Positions 27,084 to 34,458 of a DNA stretch of 35,434 bases are shown here, piece by piece. The first letter of the stretch is position 1. Each line of letters starts with the position of its first letter. The notes beneath the pieces are model-generated. The model worked only from the letters and a program-made list of their open reading frames with translations, made no database searches and was not told the DNA's origin. The position numbers and the translations under genes are program-made. This DNA is from Candidatus Saccharicenans sp. (GTDB taxonomy: Bacteria; Acidobacteriota; Aminicenantia; Aminicenantales; Saccharicenantaceae): contig JASEFX010000020.1 in the NCBI GenBank assembly GCA_030018265.1, positions 1-35,434 of the forward strand. Reading direction: 5' to 3'.

Positions 27084-27914
27084 TTAAATTTCAACCCTGA
27101 AAACTCCCTTGAGAGCAAAGCCAAAAATTATCGACAGGAGGAAATAGGCCACCAGCCAGTGGAAGGAGATTCCGGCAAATTCCAGCCTGGATTCCGGCAG
27201 AACCAGCTCGACCCGGGTGAGCAGCGAATCGGCCGGAAGGGGCTTTTCTCCAGGATGGAGAAGTTCCTGCCAGAGGTTTTTTCTCACTCTGACCGGCGAG
27301 ACCCTGGTGAGCGATCTGTTTGTGGCCGGAATGCTTTTAAGATACCGCTCTCCGTCAACCGTTATAATTACCGGCTTTCCGGTCGCTCCGGTCACTCTCA
27401 ACCTCCAGGAAACCTCAGCTTCGTCGATAATTCTGACGGGAGGCGTTTCCAGCTGCAGTCCTGCGGGCGTTTCCACTTCCAGGTTTAGTTTCATCAGGTC
27501 CACAGATTTGATAAAACGGGCTTTGAGAAGAAAAGTTTCATCTTTCGCTGGAATCCGGTAACTAAACCAGAGGTTCAACTGGGCCAGCAGCAGGAATATC
27601 GGAATTATCATAACCAGCAGAGGTTTCAAATTGTAGGAAAGATACCGGAGATTGGCTGCCAGGAGTTCTTTCTGGGAATTCAGTTGTGTCCGGAAATCAT
27701 TCTGGTACAACCTGATTTCGAGCAGGTGAGCTTTAATCCTCTCCCTGGCTCTTTTTATTCCGGCCTGGTCAGAAGTTTTTTTGTAAACAAAGAGCATCAG
27801 GAGCGCGGTAAGCAGTGAAATCACCAGCATGGCTATCCACGGATGAAAACTGGCCAGTGGCATAAAAATAATTCTGATAAGAGTTCCCAGAGCGCTGTTC
27901 AACCACCAGAGCAT
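27084..27914 (-). CDS. Oxa1/EMC3(DUF106)-like membrane protein with inserted periplasmic domain
   Basis: The chosen ATG at 27914 is 19 bases after the stop of the small RHH-like gene and gives 276 residues; the frame is open to 28040 but that overlaps this gene. Layout: an amphipathic start (LNSALGTLIRIIFMPL), TM1 about 25-44, a charged helical hairpin about 47-94 (GIKRARERIKAHLLEIRLYQ), TM2 about 97-118 (LKPLLVMIIPIFLLLAQLNL), a beta-rich region of about 130 residues, and TM3 at the C-terminus (WLVAYFLLSIIFGFALKGVF). TM1, cytosolic coiled coil, TM2 with a KP-start, and TM3 is the core of the Oxa1 superfamily (YidC, archaeal DUF106, EMC3, TMCO1), which insert proteins into membranes. The beta domain would be periplasmic. 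Similarity is by eye; function is inference. Confidence 0.6.
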   Translation of the reverse strand: MLWWLNSALGTLIRIIFMPLASFHPWIAMLVISLLTALLMLFVYKKTSDQAGIKRARERIKAHLLEIRLYQNDFRTQLNSQKELLAANLRYLSYNLKPLLVMIIPIFLLLAQLNLWFSYRIPAKDETFLLKARFIKSVDLMKLNLEVETPAGLQLETPPVRIIDEAEVSWRLRVTGATGKPVIITVDGERYLKSIPATNRSLTRVSPVRVRKNLWQELLHPGEKPLPADSLLTRVELVLPESRLEFAGISFHWLVAYFLLSIIFGFALKGVFRVEI

Positions 27915-27933: not shown

Positions 27934-28125
27934 TCAGGAAATGTAACCGAGCCCTTTGAGTCTTTTTTTAATTTCCTCTTCCGAATCGGCTCCTTCGAAT
28001 TTAGCCACTTCTTTTTCCAGCAGATGCACGATGAATTCATCGGCTGAGCTGTATCCGGCCACCTCCGCTATTTTTTTCACCTTCTCGTACAGCTCTTTTT
28101 CCAGCTTGATTCTGGCTTTTCCCAT
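27934..28125 (-). CDS. Small ribbon-helix-helix-like protein, 63 aa
   Basis: The ATG at 28125 follows AAAGGAG at good spacing; a GTG two codons earlier overlaps that site. The product begins MGKARIKLEKELYEKVKKIA and continues EVAGYSSADEFIVHLLEKEV, which fits the beta-helix-helix layout of CopG/Arc-type DNA-binding or antitoxin-like proteins. It ends with a charged stretch and IKKRLKGLGYIS. It is placed 46 bases after a phosphodiesterase gene and 19 bases before the Oxa1-like gene, so it is co-transcribed with both. No toxin partner is visible, so a regulator or an accessory of the membrane protein is more likely than a toxin-antitoxin pair. DNA binding is not proven. Confidence 0.72.
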   Translation of the reverse strand: MGKARIKLEKELYEKVKKIAEVAGYSSADEFIVHLLEKEVAKFEGADSEEEIKKRLKGLGYIS

Positions 28126-28171: not shown

Positions 28172-30172
28172 CTAAAAAACCGGGCGTCCTGTCATCCCAG
28201 AGGGAATTTTAATCCCGAAAAGCGATAAAATTCCAGCGGTAACATCCTCGAGCGCCGGCTGCTCCAGACGCGAGGGCCGGTTGGCCAGCAGCACTCCCGG
28301 GATCAACCCCGGGGCGGTCATATGATCCCCGCTCCATTTCTGCGGGTTGTTTTCGATGATTTCCCGGGGAAAATTTCCGAGCGGGGAGTTCCAGGATATA
28401 CGGTAGTTGCGGTTGAAGCCCAGGATTATGTCCGGAGCCTCCGTAACGTAGGGCCCGCTGTAAACTTCTTCTGTGATGTAAGCTTTAAGAATGACCCTTT
28501 CTCCGGTTTCCGGGTCGGTTATCTGTTCGAGTTTGCGGGCGAGCTCGCGCAGCAGACTCTGTTTTTCCTCCGGGCGCACGATTCCCCCGGCTTCCCGACC
28601 TTTAAGGTTGAGATAAAGCGCATTCAGCCCGACTCCGTAGGCTCTGGACCTTGACCAGTCGGTTGTCTGAAAAAGAGTAACTTCCTCAGGTTTCGTACCC
28701 GGTCGCAGTACATGATAGCCGTTGCGCAGAAGCCAGGTGTTCAGATTGAATCCTTTTCGGAACGGACAGAAACCGTGGTCGGACATAACGATGATGACCG
28801 TCCGGCTGTCTGTCTTTTCCATGGCCAGCTGCAGCGCCCGGTCCATCTGCTGATAGGTTTTTTCAATTACCTGCCCGAATTCCGAAGCGAGTTTTTCGTT
28901 GTAGGCCGGATGGTCACGGTCAATCAGCCGGAAGAACATATGCTGGCGCTGGTCGGCGTTGGAGAAATAGAAGAAGAGGAGACCAGACCTGAAATTTTTT
29001 AGCTCATCCTCCAGCATTGCCATCGATTCCTGGTAGACAAGCTCATCCTGGTAGAGAAATTCTTTTTCGTCCAGAACGTCGTTTTCGAGCGCGGCTGTGT
29101 CCGCCGGCAATCCTTTGGTAAAAAACGGGCCGAATTTTTTAGCCAGCTCGCGCGAGTAACTCTCCGGTGTGCTCAGCGGAAGCGCCGGGTCGGCCGGGTC
29201 GATATTAATCGGGCTTACATAAAGCTTGAATTTAGGCCTAACCTCTTTAAGATAGAACTGGCAGATGCCGCTGACGGTCTGGGTCGGGATGAATTCAAAC
29301 CTGATTCTTTTCCAGCCGCTCCATTCCTTCTCTCTGAGGATAAATTCCTGTCCCTGCAGGGAAATCTTGGCCACCTGATGAACCGGGTCTATGAACACCC
29401 TGAAATCGACGAAAGTTTCCGGGTTGCCCTTTACAAAAGGGTTATTCGGACCGGGGATTTTCGCCTCCACTCGATTTCCGATCACGTAGACATAATGAAC
29501 GCGTCCGCCTCCGCCGTATTCTTCAGTTACTGTTTTGTATTCGTTTGTGTAGTAATTGAAGAGGCCGTAATAGCCTTTCAGGTCCGGAGTTCCCATGCCG
29601 GAAAAGGTCTTCTGTCTGGTTTCCACCGGAGGATAATTGGATGGGATTTTGAAAATGGTGGCGGGAATATCATAATCTTCGAGAATCTGCCAGAAAGCTC
29701 TTCCTCGCCTGAGATTTCTTATTTCTCCGCCGGAAAGGGGAATGTGGTATTTGCCGAGCTTGAGGTTATGTCGGGGTGGCAGACTTTCCGAGGCGGAAAA
29801 TACAGGGAGATAGGTCCGCGGGTCGCGGTGGACAAAGTCAAAGATGGCGTGGCCACCCGGGTTGGTACCGGTTATGAAATTCGCCCAGGCCACCGGACTC
29901 TGCGGGGGGATGCTGGAGCCGAGCGGCAGAAAAGTTCCGGAAGCCGCCAGTTTCTTGAAGTGGGGGAGGAGTCCGGCTTCGATAAACCGGTTTACCAGTA
30001 TCGTGTCGAGTCCATCCATACCGAGCACCAGCACTTTCAGACCGGTTTCACGCCGGCCGGCGGTTTTCAGAAAGGCTTCAGTCGGGGACAGAAGCAGTCC
30101 GGCTGAGGTGCCCAGAATGAGCTGAAGGAACTCGCGTCGTCTTAGAGCTTCTTCACTTCTTCTTCCGGACAT
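28172..30172 (-). CDS. Alkaline-phosphatase-superfamily phosphodiesterase, Tat-exported
   Basis: This 666-residue protein starts at the ATG at 30172, overlapping the upstream gene by 20 bases; the longer frame to 30316 lies inside that gene. A twin-arginine signal (RRREFLQLILGTSAGLLLS) suggests folded export. The type I phosphodiesterase sites are intact: VLGMDGLDT (metal Asp), QSPVAWANFITG (Ser nucleophile), NADQRQHMFF (Asp and His), IVMSDHGF and WSGDH. Between residues about 190 and 340 a beta-rich insertion holds GYYGLFNYYTN and CQFYLKEVRPKFKLYVSPIN; the 30153 protein has the same insertion, so the two are duplicates. It should hydrolyse phosphodiesters, perhaps on lipid or glycan carriers, outside the cytoplasm. 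The substrate is unknown. Confidence 0.87.
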   Translation of the reverse strand: MSGRRSEEALRRREFLQLILGTSAGLLLSPTEAFLKTAGRRETGLKVLVLGMDGLDTILVNRFIEAGLLPHFKKLAASGTFLPLGSSIPPQSPVAWANFITGTNPGGHAIFDFVHRDPRTYLPVFSASESLPPRHNLKLGKYHIPLSGGEIRNLRRGRAFWQILEDYDIPATIFKIPSNYPPVETRQKTFSGMGTPDLKGYYGLFNYYTNEYKTVTEEYGGGGRVHYVYVIGNRVEAKIPGPNNPFVKGNPETFVDFRVFIDPVHQVAKISLQGQEFILREKEWSGWKRIRFEFIPTQTVSGICQFYLKEVRPKFKLYVSPINIDPADPALPLSTPESYSRELAKKFGPFFTKGLPADTAALENDVLDEKEFLYQDELVYQESMAMLEDELKNFRSGLLFFYFSNADQRQHMFFRLIDRDHPAYNEKLASEFGQVIEKTYQQMDRALQLAMEKTDSRTVIIVMSDHGFCPFRKGFNLNTWLLRNGYHVLRPGTKPEEVTLFQTTDWSRSRAYGVGLNALYLNLKGREAGGIVRPEEKQSLLRELARKLEQITDPETGERVILKAYITEEVYSGPYVTEAPDIILGFNRNYRISWNSPLGNFPREIIENNPQKWSGDHMTAPGLIPGVLLANRPSRLEQPALEDVTAGILSLFGIKIPSGMTGRPVF

Positions 30173-32369
30173 CGGACCTGGCCTTTTTATTTTTGTTTTT
30201 TTCTGATTCTTCTTTTTCCATTTTACCCGATTTATCAGAAAGAAGCGATCGGCCATCCATGTAGGACGGAACCGGCACCCCGAACAGTTCGAGCACGGTT
30301 GGAGCCAGGTCGGCAATCCGGGGGCTGCTGGCGGCGAGTTTCAGGTTGCTGAAAAGAACACCGGGGACAAGCTCCGGGTCCAGGCAATGGTCTCCCGACC
30401 AGGCTTTCCGGTTGTCCTCGATAACCACCCGGTTGACCCGGCCTGTAGCCGAATCCCAGGAAGCCCGATAACCTTCATTGTAGGCGACTATCAGATCCGG
30501 TGCGTTATCCCTGTAGGGTCCGTGGTATATTTTTTCGGCGTCTATCACCCGGTTGATCGCCACGGTTCCTTTTTCCGTATCTTTCAACCCGGAGAGTTTT
30601 TCCATCAATTCCTGTTTTAGCTTCCGGCTTTCTTCCCCGGGTTCAACAATTCCCTGAGCTTCTCGTCCTCTGAGGTTAAGGTAGATACCGGCCAGTCCTA
30701 GCGCGTAAGCTTTCGTCCGGCTCCAGTCGACCTGTTTGAACCATTCCTCGCTTTCGCTCGCGCCCTCTTTCAGCTGAAGATAGCCGTTCAGATAAAGCCA
30801 GGAGTTGAGGTTGACGCCGCGGCGGAATGATTTGAAACCGTGGTCGGACATTATAATAAGGCAGTCATGCTCTCCCAGTTGTTCCAGGACTCTTCCCACC
30901 AGAGAGTCCATCCGGCGGTACAGGTCTTCTATAACTCGATCTCCATCTCCTGACCTGGATGGGGCCGGACAGGCGGGATGAGCGCGGTCGAGATAGCGCC
31001 AGAACATATGCTGAATGCTGTCGGTGGTTTCAAAAACGCAGACCACCACACCGCGTGTGGTTTTCCTCAACCCGTTGAAGAAAATTTTTTCCCAGTCCTG
31101 ATGGAAGGAATAAGCGAGGTCCAGGAAGGCTTTCTCCGGCAGGACACCTTCGTTCAGCGCCCAGGTGTCGTTGGCTTCTCCCAGGGTGACGTAGCTTCCG
31201 AACAGTTTTGCCAGATAGGGAGCGTATATGAAAGGATGCGAGATCGGGAGCGCCGGCTTTTCCGGGTCTAGGTTGAGCGGTGTGAGATAAAGCTCAAAGT
31301 GAGGCTTCAGGCTCAGAAGGTAAAACCGGGCGATCCCTCTTATTCTGAATCCCGGACCGGCTTTGAAGGTCAGCTTTATCCAGGGGGAGAATTCTCCCTT
31401 TTTGAGAAGGAAGCGTGTGTCTGAAACCTCCACCTCGGCTGTCTCGCTCTCAGGATGAAGGCGGATGGTCATCGGCAGGCGGATTTCCTCCGGATTTTTA
31501 AGCAGCGTGTTTTCCGGGCCGCCGATGAAGGTTCTGACGGTTTTACCTTCAAGCTTTACCAGCCGGGTTTCTCCTCCTTCTTTTTTGTTCAATCTCTCAG
31601 GATTGGTGGTGTAAAAAAAGAAGGTTCCCTGGCTTCCCTTGAGGTCGGGAAGACACATTCCGCTCAGGAGGTGTCCGTTGAATTTTTCCGGGGGAAAGGT
31701 GATGGGCACCCGGAGAACCGTGGAGAAAATACCCTGCTGGCCGAGTATTTTCCAGAAAGGCTGGCTTTTCCGCTGAAGCTTTATCTCCGGTTTGCTGAGC
31801 GGTATACGGTATTTTCCCAGAGTGAAATAGCGTCGCGGCGGTCCGATCCTGGCTGAGGACAGGTCGGGCAGATAATTTTTCGGGTTGCGGCTTAAGAAAT
31901 CAAAAATGTTGTGCTTTGACGGCTCGCAGCCGGTCATAAAAGAAGACCAGGCGACGGGGGAGATTGCCGGAGTGGTTGTCCGCAGGCGGGAATAGGTGCC
32001 TTCTTTCTTTAACCTGAGGAAATTCGGCAATTTGCCGTCTGCCATGTATTTTTCCACCAGCGTCGGGTCCAGCCCATCAAAACCGAGAATGACCACCCGC
32101 TCCACCCGGCTTTTGCGGTAAGCCTTCTGACCTTTAAGCAATCTTATGAGCAGCCGGAAGGGCCAGGTGAGGAAAGAGAAAAATGCCAGGAAAAAAGTCA
32201 GGAAAAAAACCAGAAACGATGAAAGGAAGGCAAAGCCGGCCCCCGGACCGATGTAAGCCAGAAGCGGTGTGGACAGAATAAAGAGGGAAATAAACAGCAG
32301 CGTTGAAGCTCTCAGCCTCGAAGCTGACCCGACCCTGGTTGCCTGTTTCTCCCTGCCTTCAACTTTCAT
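30153..32369 (-). CDS. Membrane-anchored alkaline-phosphatase-superfamily phosphodiesterase
   Basis: This 738-residue protein has two hydrophobic segments near the N-terminus (STLLFISLFILSTPLLAYIG, and SSFLVFFLTFFLAFFSFLTW) around a PGAGFAF motif, and then the catalytic domain. Active-site motifs are complete: ILGFDGLDP, ISPVAWSSFMTG (Ser nucleophile), TTDSIQHMFW, IIMSDHGF and WSGDH. A beta-rich insertion (about 240-400) with IRGIARFYLLSLKPHFELYL matches the next gene's product. The end is a Lys/Glu-rich tail. Its ATG overlaps the upstream stop by four bases (ATGA), and its end overlaps the next start, so the three phosphodiesterases are coupled. Likely faces the periplasm while held in the inner membrane. 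Confidence 0.88.
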   Translation of the reverse strand: MKVEGREKQATRVGSASRLRASTLLFISLFILSTPLLAYIGPGAGFAFLSSFLVFFLTFFLAFFSFLTWPFRLLIRLLKGQKAYRKSRVERVVILGFDGLDPTLVEKYMADGKLPNFLRLKKEGTYSRLRTTTPAISPVAWSSFMTGCEPSKHNIFDFLSRNPKNYLPDLSSARIGPPRRYFTLGKYRIPLSKPEIKLQRKSQPFWKILGQQGIFSTVLRVPITFPPEKFNGHLLSGMCLPDLKGSQGTFFFYTTNPERLNKKEGGETRLVKLEGKTVRTFIGGPENTLLKNPEEIRLPMTIRLHPESETAEVEVSDTRFLLKKGEFSPWIKLTFKAGPGFRIRGIARFYLLSLKPHFELYLTPLNLDPEKPALPISHPFIYAPYLAKLFGSYVTLGEANDTWALNEGVLPEKAFLDLAYSFHQDWEKIFFNGLRKTTRGVVVCVFETTDSIQHMFWRYLDRAHPACPAPSRSGDGDRVIEDLYRRMDSLVGRVLEQLGEHDCLIIMSDHGFKSFRRGVNLNSWLYLNGYLQLKEGASESEEWFKQVDWSRTKAYALGLAGIYLNLRGREAQGIVEPGEESRKLKQELMEKLSGLKDTEKGTVAINRVIDAEKIYHGPYRDNAPDLIVAYNEGYRASWDSATGRVNRVVIEDNRKAWSGDHCLDPELVPGVLFSNLKLAASSPRIADLAPTVLELFGVPVPSYMDGRSLLSDKSGKMEKEESEKNKNKKARSDVRKKK

Positions 32370-33664
32370 TTAAGTTTTTTCAGAATGATGCCGGCCAGGT
32401 TTTCTATCGCCAGGTCAGGACCGTGGTCTTCCGTGGACCAGAAAAACGCGTCATCCCAGGTGTGCATTCCCTGAAGGTAACTGCGCCCGAAAACTTCTTT
32501 CTTCCTGATCGACCCTTTCAGGTCAAAACCGGGCTCGGAGACCACTATCAGGTCCGGACCCCGGGAAGTGTAGCGGCCGCTGTATACCTCTTCAGCCATG
32601 AAAACCTGACGGACTACCCGACGACCGTTGTACTCGAGTTTTTTCAAACGTTCGGCAATTTCTTCTCTCAGTTTCTTCCGCTCGGATTTCTCCACCCGGC
32701 CTCTGGGAAATTTATTTTTCAGGTTGAGGTAGATGCGGTTGGGGTCGAGAGCAAAGGCGACAGTTTTGCTGGAAATGTCGTTCAGGCTCCTGGGTTCCGG
32801 GGTGTTGAACGAAAGGTATCCGTTCTGAGCCAGCCAGGCATTCAGGTAAACTTCCTGGACTATTCCGGTAAAACCATGGTCGGAAAGGATAAAGAAATTC
32901 TCCTCGCTCTCGTTCATTTTTTTGAAGGCATTCAGTATTTTCCCTATGATGCGGTCTATCTGCTGGTAAAAATCGAGAAAATATTGATGGAATGGATGTG
33001 AGGTGTCTTCGTAAGCGGACCAGAGAAAGTGGTGCAGACGGTCAGTGCAGGTGATAACAAATTCAAAATAATCCCAGTCCTGTTCCCAGAAATAATTCAG
33101 GGCTTTCTGATGGCTGGCCATCGTTTTGGAAATTTCCTGCCAGAGGACGGCCGGATTGTCGACCACCTTGCCGGAATCCACGTCAATCTGGTATCCCATC
33201 TGCTCGAGGGTGGAAAAGTAGCTCTGAGGAAAGACTGACCGGGAGAGGTCTACCGCTACAAACCCGGAAATCAGCACGCCGTTGACCCGTCTGGCCGGGT
33301 AGGTGGAAGGCTGGTTGATGACGATGCTCTTAAGGCCGCGTTTTCCGAGCTGATCCCAGATCGTATCTGATTTGACATCAAGAAAGTTGGGAATTCTGAG
33401 GTCATAGGTTCCCGGTTTGAAATCGGTAAACCCGAAAATCCCGTGAGTTCCGGGGTTGGCTCCGGTCATGAAATTTGTCCAGGAAACGGCCGAGATTTCC
33501 GGCAGACTGGCTTTCATCCGGTGCAGATGGCCGGCATCCAGAAGCCTGGAGACGGTGCTCATTGCCCCGGATTTAGCCAGATTCAGGAGCATCGAATGGG
33601 GGACACCGTCGAGTCCGACAACACAAACCTTTCTGCGGGGTCTGGACTTTTTTATGATGGCCAT
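32366..33664 (-). CDS. Cytosolic alkaline-phosphatase-superfamily phosphodiesterase
   Basis: The shortest of the three (432 residues), without a signal or membrane segment, so probably cytoplasmic. Motifs are VCVVGLDGVPH, EISAVSWTNFMTG (Ser nucleophile), TCTDRLHHFLW, FILSDHGF and a late QGMHTW with the final metal His. The beta-rich insertion of the other two is absent. The start must lie before the first strand, VCVVGLDG; ATG at 33664 is the only reasonable choice, with TTG at 33691 less likely. There is no ribosome site, and the promoter at 33702-33675 leaves only a few bases of leader, so translation may be leaderless. It opens the eight-gene run that ends at 25364. Confidence 0.86.
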   Translation of the reverse strand: MAIIKKSRPRRKVCVVGLDGVPHSMLLNLAKSGAMSTVSRLLDAGHLHRMKASLPEISAVSWTNFMTGANPGTHGIFGFTDFKPGTYDLRIPNFLDVKSDTIWDQLGKRGLKSIVINQPSTYPARRVNGVLISGFVAVDLSRSVFPQSYFSTLEQMGYQIDVDSGKVVDNPAVLWQEISKTMASHQKALNYFWEQDWDYFEFVITCTDRLHHFLWSAYEDTSHPFHQYFLDFYQQIDRIIGKILNAFKKMNESEENFFILSDHGFTGIVQEVYLNAWLAQNGYLSFNTPEPRSLNDISSKTVAFALDPNRIYLNLKNKFPRGRVEKSERKKLREEIAERLKKLEYNGRRVVRQVFMAEEVYSGRYTSRGPDLIVVSEPGFDLKGSIRKKEVFGRSYLQGMHTWDDAFFWSTEDHGPDLAIENLAGIILKKLK

Positions 33665-33674
33665 TTGCCAGATT

Positions 33675-33702
33675 ATTATAGCACCAGGCAACCGGCTGTC
33701 AA
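33675..33702 (-). promoter_or_regulatory. Consensus promoter of the phosphodiesterase run
   Basis: On the minus strand TTGACA (33702-33697) and TATAAT (33680-33675), both perfect, are separated by 16 bases. The start of transcription should be about 33666-33669, 2-5 bases before the ATG at 33664. Confidence 0.8.
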
Positions 33703-33745: not shown

Positions 33746-33766
33746 ATTTACCGGGATTCGGTAAAT
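33746..33766 (-). terminator. Terminator of the disulfide oxidoreductase gene
   Basis: ATTTACCG and CGGTAAAT form a perfect 8-bp stem with a 5-base loop that abuts the TGA stop. On the minus strand it is followed by TATTTATTTTC, a U-rich tract. It separates the oxidoreductase gene from the phosphodiesterase promoter. Confidence 0.65.
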
Positions 33767-34458
33767 CAGTTCGGCTCCACTCCGCCAGCCTTCAGTACCT
33801 GTTCCAAGAACATTTCTTCGGGGACGGCTCCTTCGAGCGACAGTGTATCGTTAAAAATGGTCTTCGGAACGCCGAACACCTCATATTTCTGAGTCAATTC
33901 TGGAAATTCGGTGGCTTCGATCATCGAGGCTTTAACCAGAGGAGACTCCAGGGCCATCTGATGGCCGAGGCGAACGGCGATCGGGCAGTAAGGGCAGGTG
34001 GGAGTAACGAACACCTGAATGTTCACTTCTTTCTGCAGTTTTTTCAGCGCCTCTTTGGTTTCCGGGCTTAATTCGGTTTCTCCCCGGCTGACATCAACGA
34101 TGGATTCCAGCAGGCTCATGAACTCATAGCCTGAGGGAATTCCAAAAAAGCGAATTCCATAATCCCGGTCGCCCATAATCACGATGGCCGGAACTTTATC
34201 GATTCCAAACTCGGCCGCCCGCTCCGGTTCCTTCTCCAGTTCGTAGACGGTTAAGTTGATTTTGTCGGTGAGAGAAGCCAGCTCTTCCAGAAGTTGTTTG
34301 GTTTCAGGACAGAAACCGCATTCTTCCCCGGCTGTCTGACCCGGGATAATCAAAGGGCTTCTTTCTTTGGTGAAATATACCAGGTTGACCGGGTTGATCA
34401 GCTCGGCCGCGAATTTTTTCCGGGTAAAATCCCTGACTTCTTCGTTAAGCAGTTGCAT
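33766..34458 (-). CDS. Protein disulfide oxidoreductase, archaeal PDO type
   Basis: This 230-residue protein has two thioredoxin folds in one chain, each with a CxxC site: CGFC at 47-50 and CPYC at 155-158 in VTPTCPYCPIAVRLGHQMA. The cis-Pro residues follow at about 90 and 198. The linker region with RFFGIPSGYEF and SIVDVSRGETEL closely resembles the well-known PDO of thermophilic archaea such as Pyrococcus. These enzymes make or shuffle disulfides in the cytosol, and are common in thermophiles. No signal peptide is seen. The ATG at 34458 follows GGAG by seven bases. It diverges from the class III aminotransferase and has its own terminator. Confidence 0.9.
   Translation of the reverse strand: MQLLNEEVRDFTRKKFAAELINPVNLVYFTKERSPLIIPGQTAGEECGFCPETKQLLEELASLTDKINLTVYELEKEPERAAEFGIDKVPAIVIMGDRDYGIRFFGIPSGYEFMSLLESIVDVSRGETELSPETKEALKKLQKEVNIQVFVTPTCPYCPIAVRLGHQMALESPLVKASMIEATEFPELTQKYEVFGVPKTIFNDTLSLEGAVPEEMFLEQVLKAGGVEPN

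Follow-up and report, generated by a model that had tools for sequence, protein, structure and literature searches.

A minus-strand gene in the window, the 35,434-nucleotide stretch of Candidatus Saccharicenans DNA analysed here, encodes a membrane protein (P0001; here called INS, like its gene) that, judged by sequence comparison, is very probably an Oxa1-superfamily protein of the DUF106/EMC3/TMCO1 branch. INS is bound by strict linkage to a four-gene operon consisting of PDE2, PDE3, RHH, and INS itself. For this protein we computed kinship, topology signals, an extra domain, co-occurrence with YidC, and linkage to the operon in gene order and in presence; that it serves as a dedicated membrane partner of its own operon, rather than as a general insertase, is a proposal to which we give about an even chance. 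The features discussed below are as follows.

32366–33691, minus strand: PDE1, a phosphodiesterase without an evident signal (PF01663, E 3e-40)
30153–32369, minus strand: PDE2, an AP-superfamily phosphodiesterase with an N-terminal signal/TM hairpin around AYIGPGAG (PF01663, E 2.8e-32)
28172–30316, minus strand: PDE3, an AP-superfamily phosphodiesterase with a Tat-type signal, RRREFLQLILG (PF01663, E 4.2e-32)
27934–28125, minus strand: RHH-like protein of 63 aa with a conserved C-terminal LKGLGYIS (RHH_1 below cut-off)
27084–27914, minus strand: INS, a three-TM EMC3/DUF106-like protein with a predicted periplasmic beta domain (profiles, AlphaFold model)
INS aa 2–20, minus strand: amphipathic, EH1-like helix preceding TM1 (AlphaFold helix)
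27783–27842, minus strand: INS TM1, aa 25–44, H1 equivalent (AlphaFold helix 25–47; hydropathy 2.46)
27627–27782, minus strand: INS cytosolic hairpin H2/H3 (predicted), aa 45–96, net positive (AlphaFold helices 50–69 and 74–117)
27564–27626, minus strand: INS TM2, aa 97–117, H4 equivalent (model, hydropathy, MJ0480 alignment)
27162–27563, minus strand: INS beta domain, aa 118–251, at the h4h5 position (model strands, Ig-like folds, near-zero net charge)
27111–27161, minus strand: INS TM3, aa 252–268, H5 equivalent (helix 253–268; weak colinear stretch with MJ0480 172–197)

The INS gene, which is EMC3/DUF106-like, runs on the minus strand from an ATG at 27914 to a stop codon at 27086–27084 and encodes 276 aa; the plus strand of the same interval is broken by in-frame stops. 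A sequence-only reading of this DNA had placed the feature at 27084–27914, coordinates that proved exact, and had left the minus strand unstated; the existence and layout of the feature are confirmed. INS is intact, without internal stops, in 55 of 60 related genomes (39–73% identity), its orthologues across the phylum share the start at or near the same place in the alignments, and these alignments describe one unbroken family with conserved positions spread along the full length. Because the frame is free of stops in those 55 genomes and the start is kept across the phylum, sequence conservation indicates that INS is a real gene. A 318-aa version beginning at an upstream in-frame ATG, as given in the ORF listing, was rejected: the added stretch overlaps the 63-aa gene, and relatives begin at 27914 or a few codons away. 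The host genome (2.37 Mb in 105 contigs, completeness 90.6%) belongs to the Aminicenantia, and the closest sequences in the INS tree are those of Candidatus Saccharicenans, at 71% identity.

EMC3_TMCO1 (PF01956) was the only Pfam family to match P0001 at E < 1 (E 9.9e-5, 22.6 bits, Pfam cut-off 27.1); PF02096 (60KD_IMP) gave no match to P0001 at E up to 10. NCBIfam gave none. EMC3_TMCO1 matches 34 of 52 INS relatives, with most members scoring under the cut-off and one relative from the same phylum reaching 29.0 bits. By Pfam's own rule, P0001 is thus not a PF01956 member, though it appears to be homologous. We did not accept the EMC3_TMCO1 match as sole proof of the EMC3 branch, since true YidC proteins of Acidobacteriota also score 21–25 bits with this profile. 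When the INS family profile was searched against all PDB chains, it matched MJ0480, an archaeal DUF106 protein, at E values of 2.7e-10 and 1.6e-10; no YidC entry was matched in this search, and EMC3 or TMCO1 structures were not matched directly. The alignment with MJ0480 is colinear, with 40 bits from TM1-hairpin-TM2 and 7 bits from TM3, and one INS sequence alone matches MJ0480 at E 4.2e-4. Profile–profile comparison of INS gave P values of 5e-8 to 9e-8 against the matched fragment of MJ0480, which formed the archaeal side of this comparison, and was not significant against Acidobacteriota YidC.

Relatives from Planctomycetota, which we call type B (L237–L246) to distinguish them from the type A proteins of phosphodiesterase operons, bear on the same question. 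Type B proteins score 33.5 and 38.1 bits with EMC3_TMCO1, above the cut-off of 27.1, and can be aligned with type A (254 columns, E 2.7e-23) in a stretch that takes in the beta domain. The two types thus have in common an architecture that includes the beta domain, whereas type B genes follow genes for a PQQ-propeller membrane protein and a PPDK_N/PEP-utilising enzyme in place of the phosphodiesterases and RHH of type A. In L238 and L246, the type B protein is fused to the PPDK-like enzyme. Because the INS profile matches MJ0480 and these planctomycete relatives exceed the Pfam cut-off, INS is very probably homologous to the DUF106/EMC3/TMCO1 branch. The matches to EMC3_TMCO1 and MJ0480, with no YidC entry beside them, agree with the earlier assignment to the Oxa1 clan, and the MJ0480 match and the relatives of the same build that pass the cut-off bear out its further claim that the protein resembles DUF106 and EMC3 rather than YidC.

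An AlphaFold2 model of INS, calculated with 52 natural sequences (mean pLDDT 91.5, pTM 0.81), has in order an amphipathic helix at residues 2–20, TM1, a helical hairpin, TM2, the beta domain, and TM3, and the hydropathy profile matches this helix layout. The order of TM1, charged hairpin, TM2, and TM3 noted earlier is therefore seen both in the sequence and in the model. TM2 (aa 97–117) reads LKPLLVMIIPIF. The beta domain, said in the sequence-only reading to comprise about 130 beta-rich residues, has 134 (aa 118–251), with 11 short strands between 127 and 251 in the model. Residues 121–201 resemble Ig/filamin folds (Z 5–6, rmsd 2–3 Å over ~75 residues), a match that is modest and of a common kind. 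The mean composition of the hairpin in 52 members is 10.4 K+R versus 3.6 D+E, and in the same members the C-terminal tail is basic and the beta domain neutral. Because basic hairpins and C termini flank a neutral beta domain, the positive-inside rule predicts that the hairpin and C terminus of INS are cytosolic and that the beta domain is periplasmic. In the PPDK fusions of L238 and L246, one more hydrophobic helix separates the enzyme from the INS-like core, which fits a cytosolic PPDK-like enzyme followed by a core that starts outside. The positive-inside counts, together with the extra TM in both natural fusions, thus point the same way as the earlier suggestion that the insert faces the periplasm.

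Comparison with structures was less informative. Searches of PDB folds with the whole INS model (Foldseek, VIA-align) gave match lists filled by the Ig-like domain, and residues 1–118, modelled without TM3 (pTM 0.57), gave generic two-helix matches; MJ0480's own chain, EMC3, and YidC were absent among the rows shown for these searches. A 5c8j row in the fold list was not counted as support for MJ0480, as it concerns chain E, and its range and its rank among antibody Fabs suggest a Fab chain. For the fold proposed earlier, the predicted helix order is that of Oxa1, and the PDB fold lists are uninformative about three-helix packing. Over the three TMs, INS has on average 6.3 polar residues versus 9 in MJ0480 and in the YidC of its own genome. 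In TM3, type A proteins have ~1 polar residue, on average about one Ser/Thr with almost no amide or charged residue, versus 4 in MJ0480 and 5 in the genome's own YidC. The core of the INS family is better conserved than the Ig domain.

In Oxa1 proteins, the core helices are named H1, H4, and H5, H2/H3 forms the cytosolic hairpin, and the most variable parts are H2/3 and h4h5 (Lewis and Hegde, PMC8675477). Bacterial YidC has its additional TMs in h4h5, and the P1 periplasmic domain of Escherichia coli YidC precedes the first core helix (PMC8675477, Table 1). INS has much in common with MJ0480 of Methanocaldococcus jannaschii (PDB 5c8j, PF01956): both have an amphipathic N-terminal helix, and in both TM1 ends with (D/N)Q, TM2 contains (K/R)PM...P, and TM3 begins with W. 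They differ in the segment that joins TM2 to TM3, which is short in MJ0480 (a protein of 207 aa) and 134 residues long in INS, in the more polar TM3 of MJ0480, and in the phosphodiesterase operon that surrounds INS. EMC3 and TMCO1 share with INS the three-TM core and kinship to PF01956, but INS has a predicted periplasmic domain at h4h5. YidC (PF02096) belongs to the same superfamily, and YidC of diderms also has a large periplasmic domain; in YidC that domain precedes the first core TM, whereas the beta domain of INS sits between TM2 and TM3, and INS has three TMs against six in YidC, five of them conserved.

On the minus strand of the window, PDE1, PDE2, PDE3, and the 63-aa RHH gene are followed by INS as the last gene of the run; downstream on the same strand lie genes for an aminotransferase and then an OmpH/Skp-like protein. 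PDE1 is part of the operon in gene maps of many Aminicenantia. The listed ORF of PDE3 is probably N-terminally extended, with a true start nearer 30170. To measure linkage, we used a non-redundant set of 126 type A loci that were found via INS and not via its neighbours. The RHH gene is directly upstream of INS in 117 of the 119 loci with enough sequence, and PDE2 and PDE3 both lie ≤3.5 kb upstream of INS in 91 of 91 loci. Among 297 Acidobacteriota genomes, 76 have INS and PDE3, 1 has INS only, 3 have PDE3 only, and 217 have neither (Fisher p 5e-66, a value not to be read literally, as the PDE3 line was set post hoc at a score gap and the genomes are related). Two of the three PDE3-only genomes have the gene on short contigs, and in G128 the contig stops inside the RHH gene. 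One acidobacterial genome (G210; L257 and L258) has orthologues of PDE3 and PDE2 at separate places, without INS or the operon; this genuine exception offers a natural setting in which to ask if PDE3 functions by itself. Elsewhere in the PDE superfamily, proteins occur freely where INS is absent.

Rearranged operons also occur, with PDE2 after INS in L100, PDE3 after INS in L192, and a foreign gene between RHH and INS in L184 and L186. What looked like a fusion of PDE3 to RHH in L203 did not hold up on inspection, and the RHH gene seemed missing from some gene maps merely through the reading frame picked.

The PDE2/PDE3 pair is present in many Acidobacteriota and Planctomycetota and is, to our knowledge, uncharacterised. 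In 83 of 92 PDE2 sequences, the N terminus consists of a signal/TM, YIGPGAG, a second TM, and basic residues; the remaining sequences are mostly ORFs with misplaced starts. This pattern predicts that PDE2 has a membrane hairpin with a very small loop outside and its catalytic domain in the cytosol. By simple patterns, 64 of 106 PDE3 sequences have a Tat-type signal and 18 of 106 a lipobox, predicting a periplasmic enzyme. The three consecutive AP-superfamily phosphodiesterases of the window (28172–33691, minus strand) differ in predicted location, with no signal, a TM hairpin, and a Tat signal.

The host genome has its own ordinary YidC, encoded on a different contig (213 bits with PF02096), and YidC is also encoded in 8 of 8 other INS host genomes tested (9 of 9 with the host genome), which are labelled Desulfobacterales, Sumerlaeota, Chloroflexi, Dadabacteria, Deltaproteobacteria, Planctomycetota, or bacterium. 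Because its own genome and those eight others encode YidC, INS is not a replacement for YidC. A search for EMC6 (PF07019) gave no match in the 90.6% complete host genome, but the control genomes too scored below the cut-off, which makes this a weak test. We found INS in 77 of 297 sampled Acidobacteriota genomes, with about three quarters lacking it, in 11 of 297 Desulfobacterota genomes, in 47 of 246 genomes of the phylum of a Planctomycetota-labelled MAG (types A and B), in 1 of 201 genomes of another phylum, represented by a lone MAG, and in records labelled Dadabacteria and Sumerlaeota; these phylum labels are the submitters' own, and some records are possibly mis-binned. The earlier description of a second insertase-like protein fits the separate YidC of the genome, but its expectation that such a protein would be unusual in bacteria has to be tempered, as INS is no isolated case and is widespread in some phyla. 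The INS tree splits strongly into types A and B (support 100/100), and the labelled phyla do not each form one clade, a scatter that could reflect transfer, loss, or mislabelling.

Because PDE2 and PDE3 accompany INS in 91 of 91 loci, RHH does so in 117 of 119, and INS and PDE3 are present together in 76 genomes, we favour a dedicated assembly role for INS, which at present we would put slightly short of an even chance. In this mechanism, the periplasmic domain of ~130 residues would have taken the place of the short extracytoplasmic loop that joins the second core helix to the third. Oxa1-type proteins take membrane segments with short loops; the cytosolic hairpin and three-helix core of INS would take up the membrane hairpin at the N terminus of PDE2, which may then stay bound to INS as a partner. 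Outside, the Ig-like domain would hold or position PDE3, exported by its Tat or lipoprotein signal, and the enzymes of both membrane faces would thereby be assembled at one place. We infer the physical complex, the role of PDE2 as a client, and any insertion by INS from the computed linkage and topology.

The main rival to dedicated assembly is that INS, though derived from Oxa1, no longer inserts proteins and is a scaffold whose core serves just to anchor and organise the phosphodiesterases in type A or the PPDK-like enzyme in type B, with all insertion left to the true YidC and SecY. We consider this possible, if somewhat doubtful. The reduced polar strip of TM3 (~1 residue, versus 4 in MJ0480 and 5 in the genome's YidC), the PPDK-like enzyme and PQQ propeller that partner type B, including natural PPDK fusions, and the presence of YidC wherever tested would all suit a scaffold. 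TM1, the hairpin, and TM2 are nevertheless kept better than the Ig domain, beyond the needs of a mere anchor, and the polar count over the three TMs is just modestly lower (6.3 versus 9). A very different alternative makes INS a transport or flipping subunit whose membrane groove carries a lipid or head group with a phosphate from one phospho-enzyme to another across the membrane, one enzyme being cytosolic and the other periplasmic. The partners in both operon types do indeed carry out phosphate chemistry (AP-superfamily phosphodiesterases or PPDK-like enzymes), and PDE2 and PDE3 are predicted to lie on opposite membrane faces; the topology of PDE2 is, however, itself a prediction, we know of no Oxa1-superfamily protein that flips lipids, and we regard a flipping role as improbable.

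Strict linkage to one operon makes it less likely that INS is a general-purpose second insertase that serves many clients alongside YidC. Such a role would be in keeping with a core of the class found in proteins whose insertase activity is proven (EMC3: PMC8887752) and with the separation of INS from YidC in sequence, but INS tracks one phosphodiesterase pair one-to-one and is missing from about three quarters of the sampled Acidobacteriota, and we give this role little credence. It would be more surprising still if INS fell outside the Oxa1 superfamily altogether, as a membrane-anchored Ig protein with a helical hairpin arisen by chance. Fold searches gave no Oxa1 structure among the rows shown and most INS members score under the Pfam cut-off, as such a protein would; against this, the MJ0480 match (1.6e-10) has the right elements in the right order, and type B intermediates with the same architecture score above Pfam's cut-off, leaving a chance origin very improbable indeed.

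In published reviews and trees, the Oxa1 superfamily is represented by YidC in bacteria and by the three-TM DUF106/EMC3/TMCO1 proteins in archaea and eukaryotes (PMC8675477, PMC8887752); in one of them, archaeal sequences were drawn from PF01956 and its non-archaeal members were treated as EMC3 and TMCO1 (PMC8675477). Among open-licence papers, we found none on bacterial PF01956 proteins or on EMC3 in Planctomycetes. INS therefore represents a lineage for which we found no description, not one unseen by software, because some bacterial members would already carry a label in Pfam-based databases. One broader reading, which we believe and doubt in equal measure, is that several bacterial phyla possess, beside YidC, a separate archaeal/EMC3-type lineage that bears a periplasmic Ig-like domain and is now the membrane subunit of phospho-enzyme modules, these being pairs of AP-superfamily phosphodiesterases in one type and PPDK-like enzymes in the other. 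A broad bacterial lineage of three-TM proteins with an extra periplasmic domain would supply a branch now missing from this picture of the Oxa1 superfamily. INS is also a natural case of an Oxa1-type core tied to specific partner enzymes, and this tie makes client specificity testable with one operon and one suspected client hairpin.

Other features of the neighbourhood recur elsewhere. Upstream of the operon, at 33766–34458 on the minus strand, lies a gene for a two-domain glutaredoxin/thioredoxin-like protein (Thioredoxin_3), and a protein of this kind precedes PDE1 in several close relatives. The tail of the RHH protein is nearly invariant, SEEEIKK(R/K)LKGLGYIS. A similar tail, L..LGY[ILV], is found in a second RHH protein of the same genome, encoded beside a sulfate adenylyltransferase and another AP-superfamily phosphodiesterase, and tails of this kind also end APS-kinase-like and sulfatase-like ORFs (loci L206; L086, L088, L162, L117, L203, and L102).
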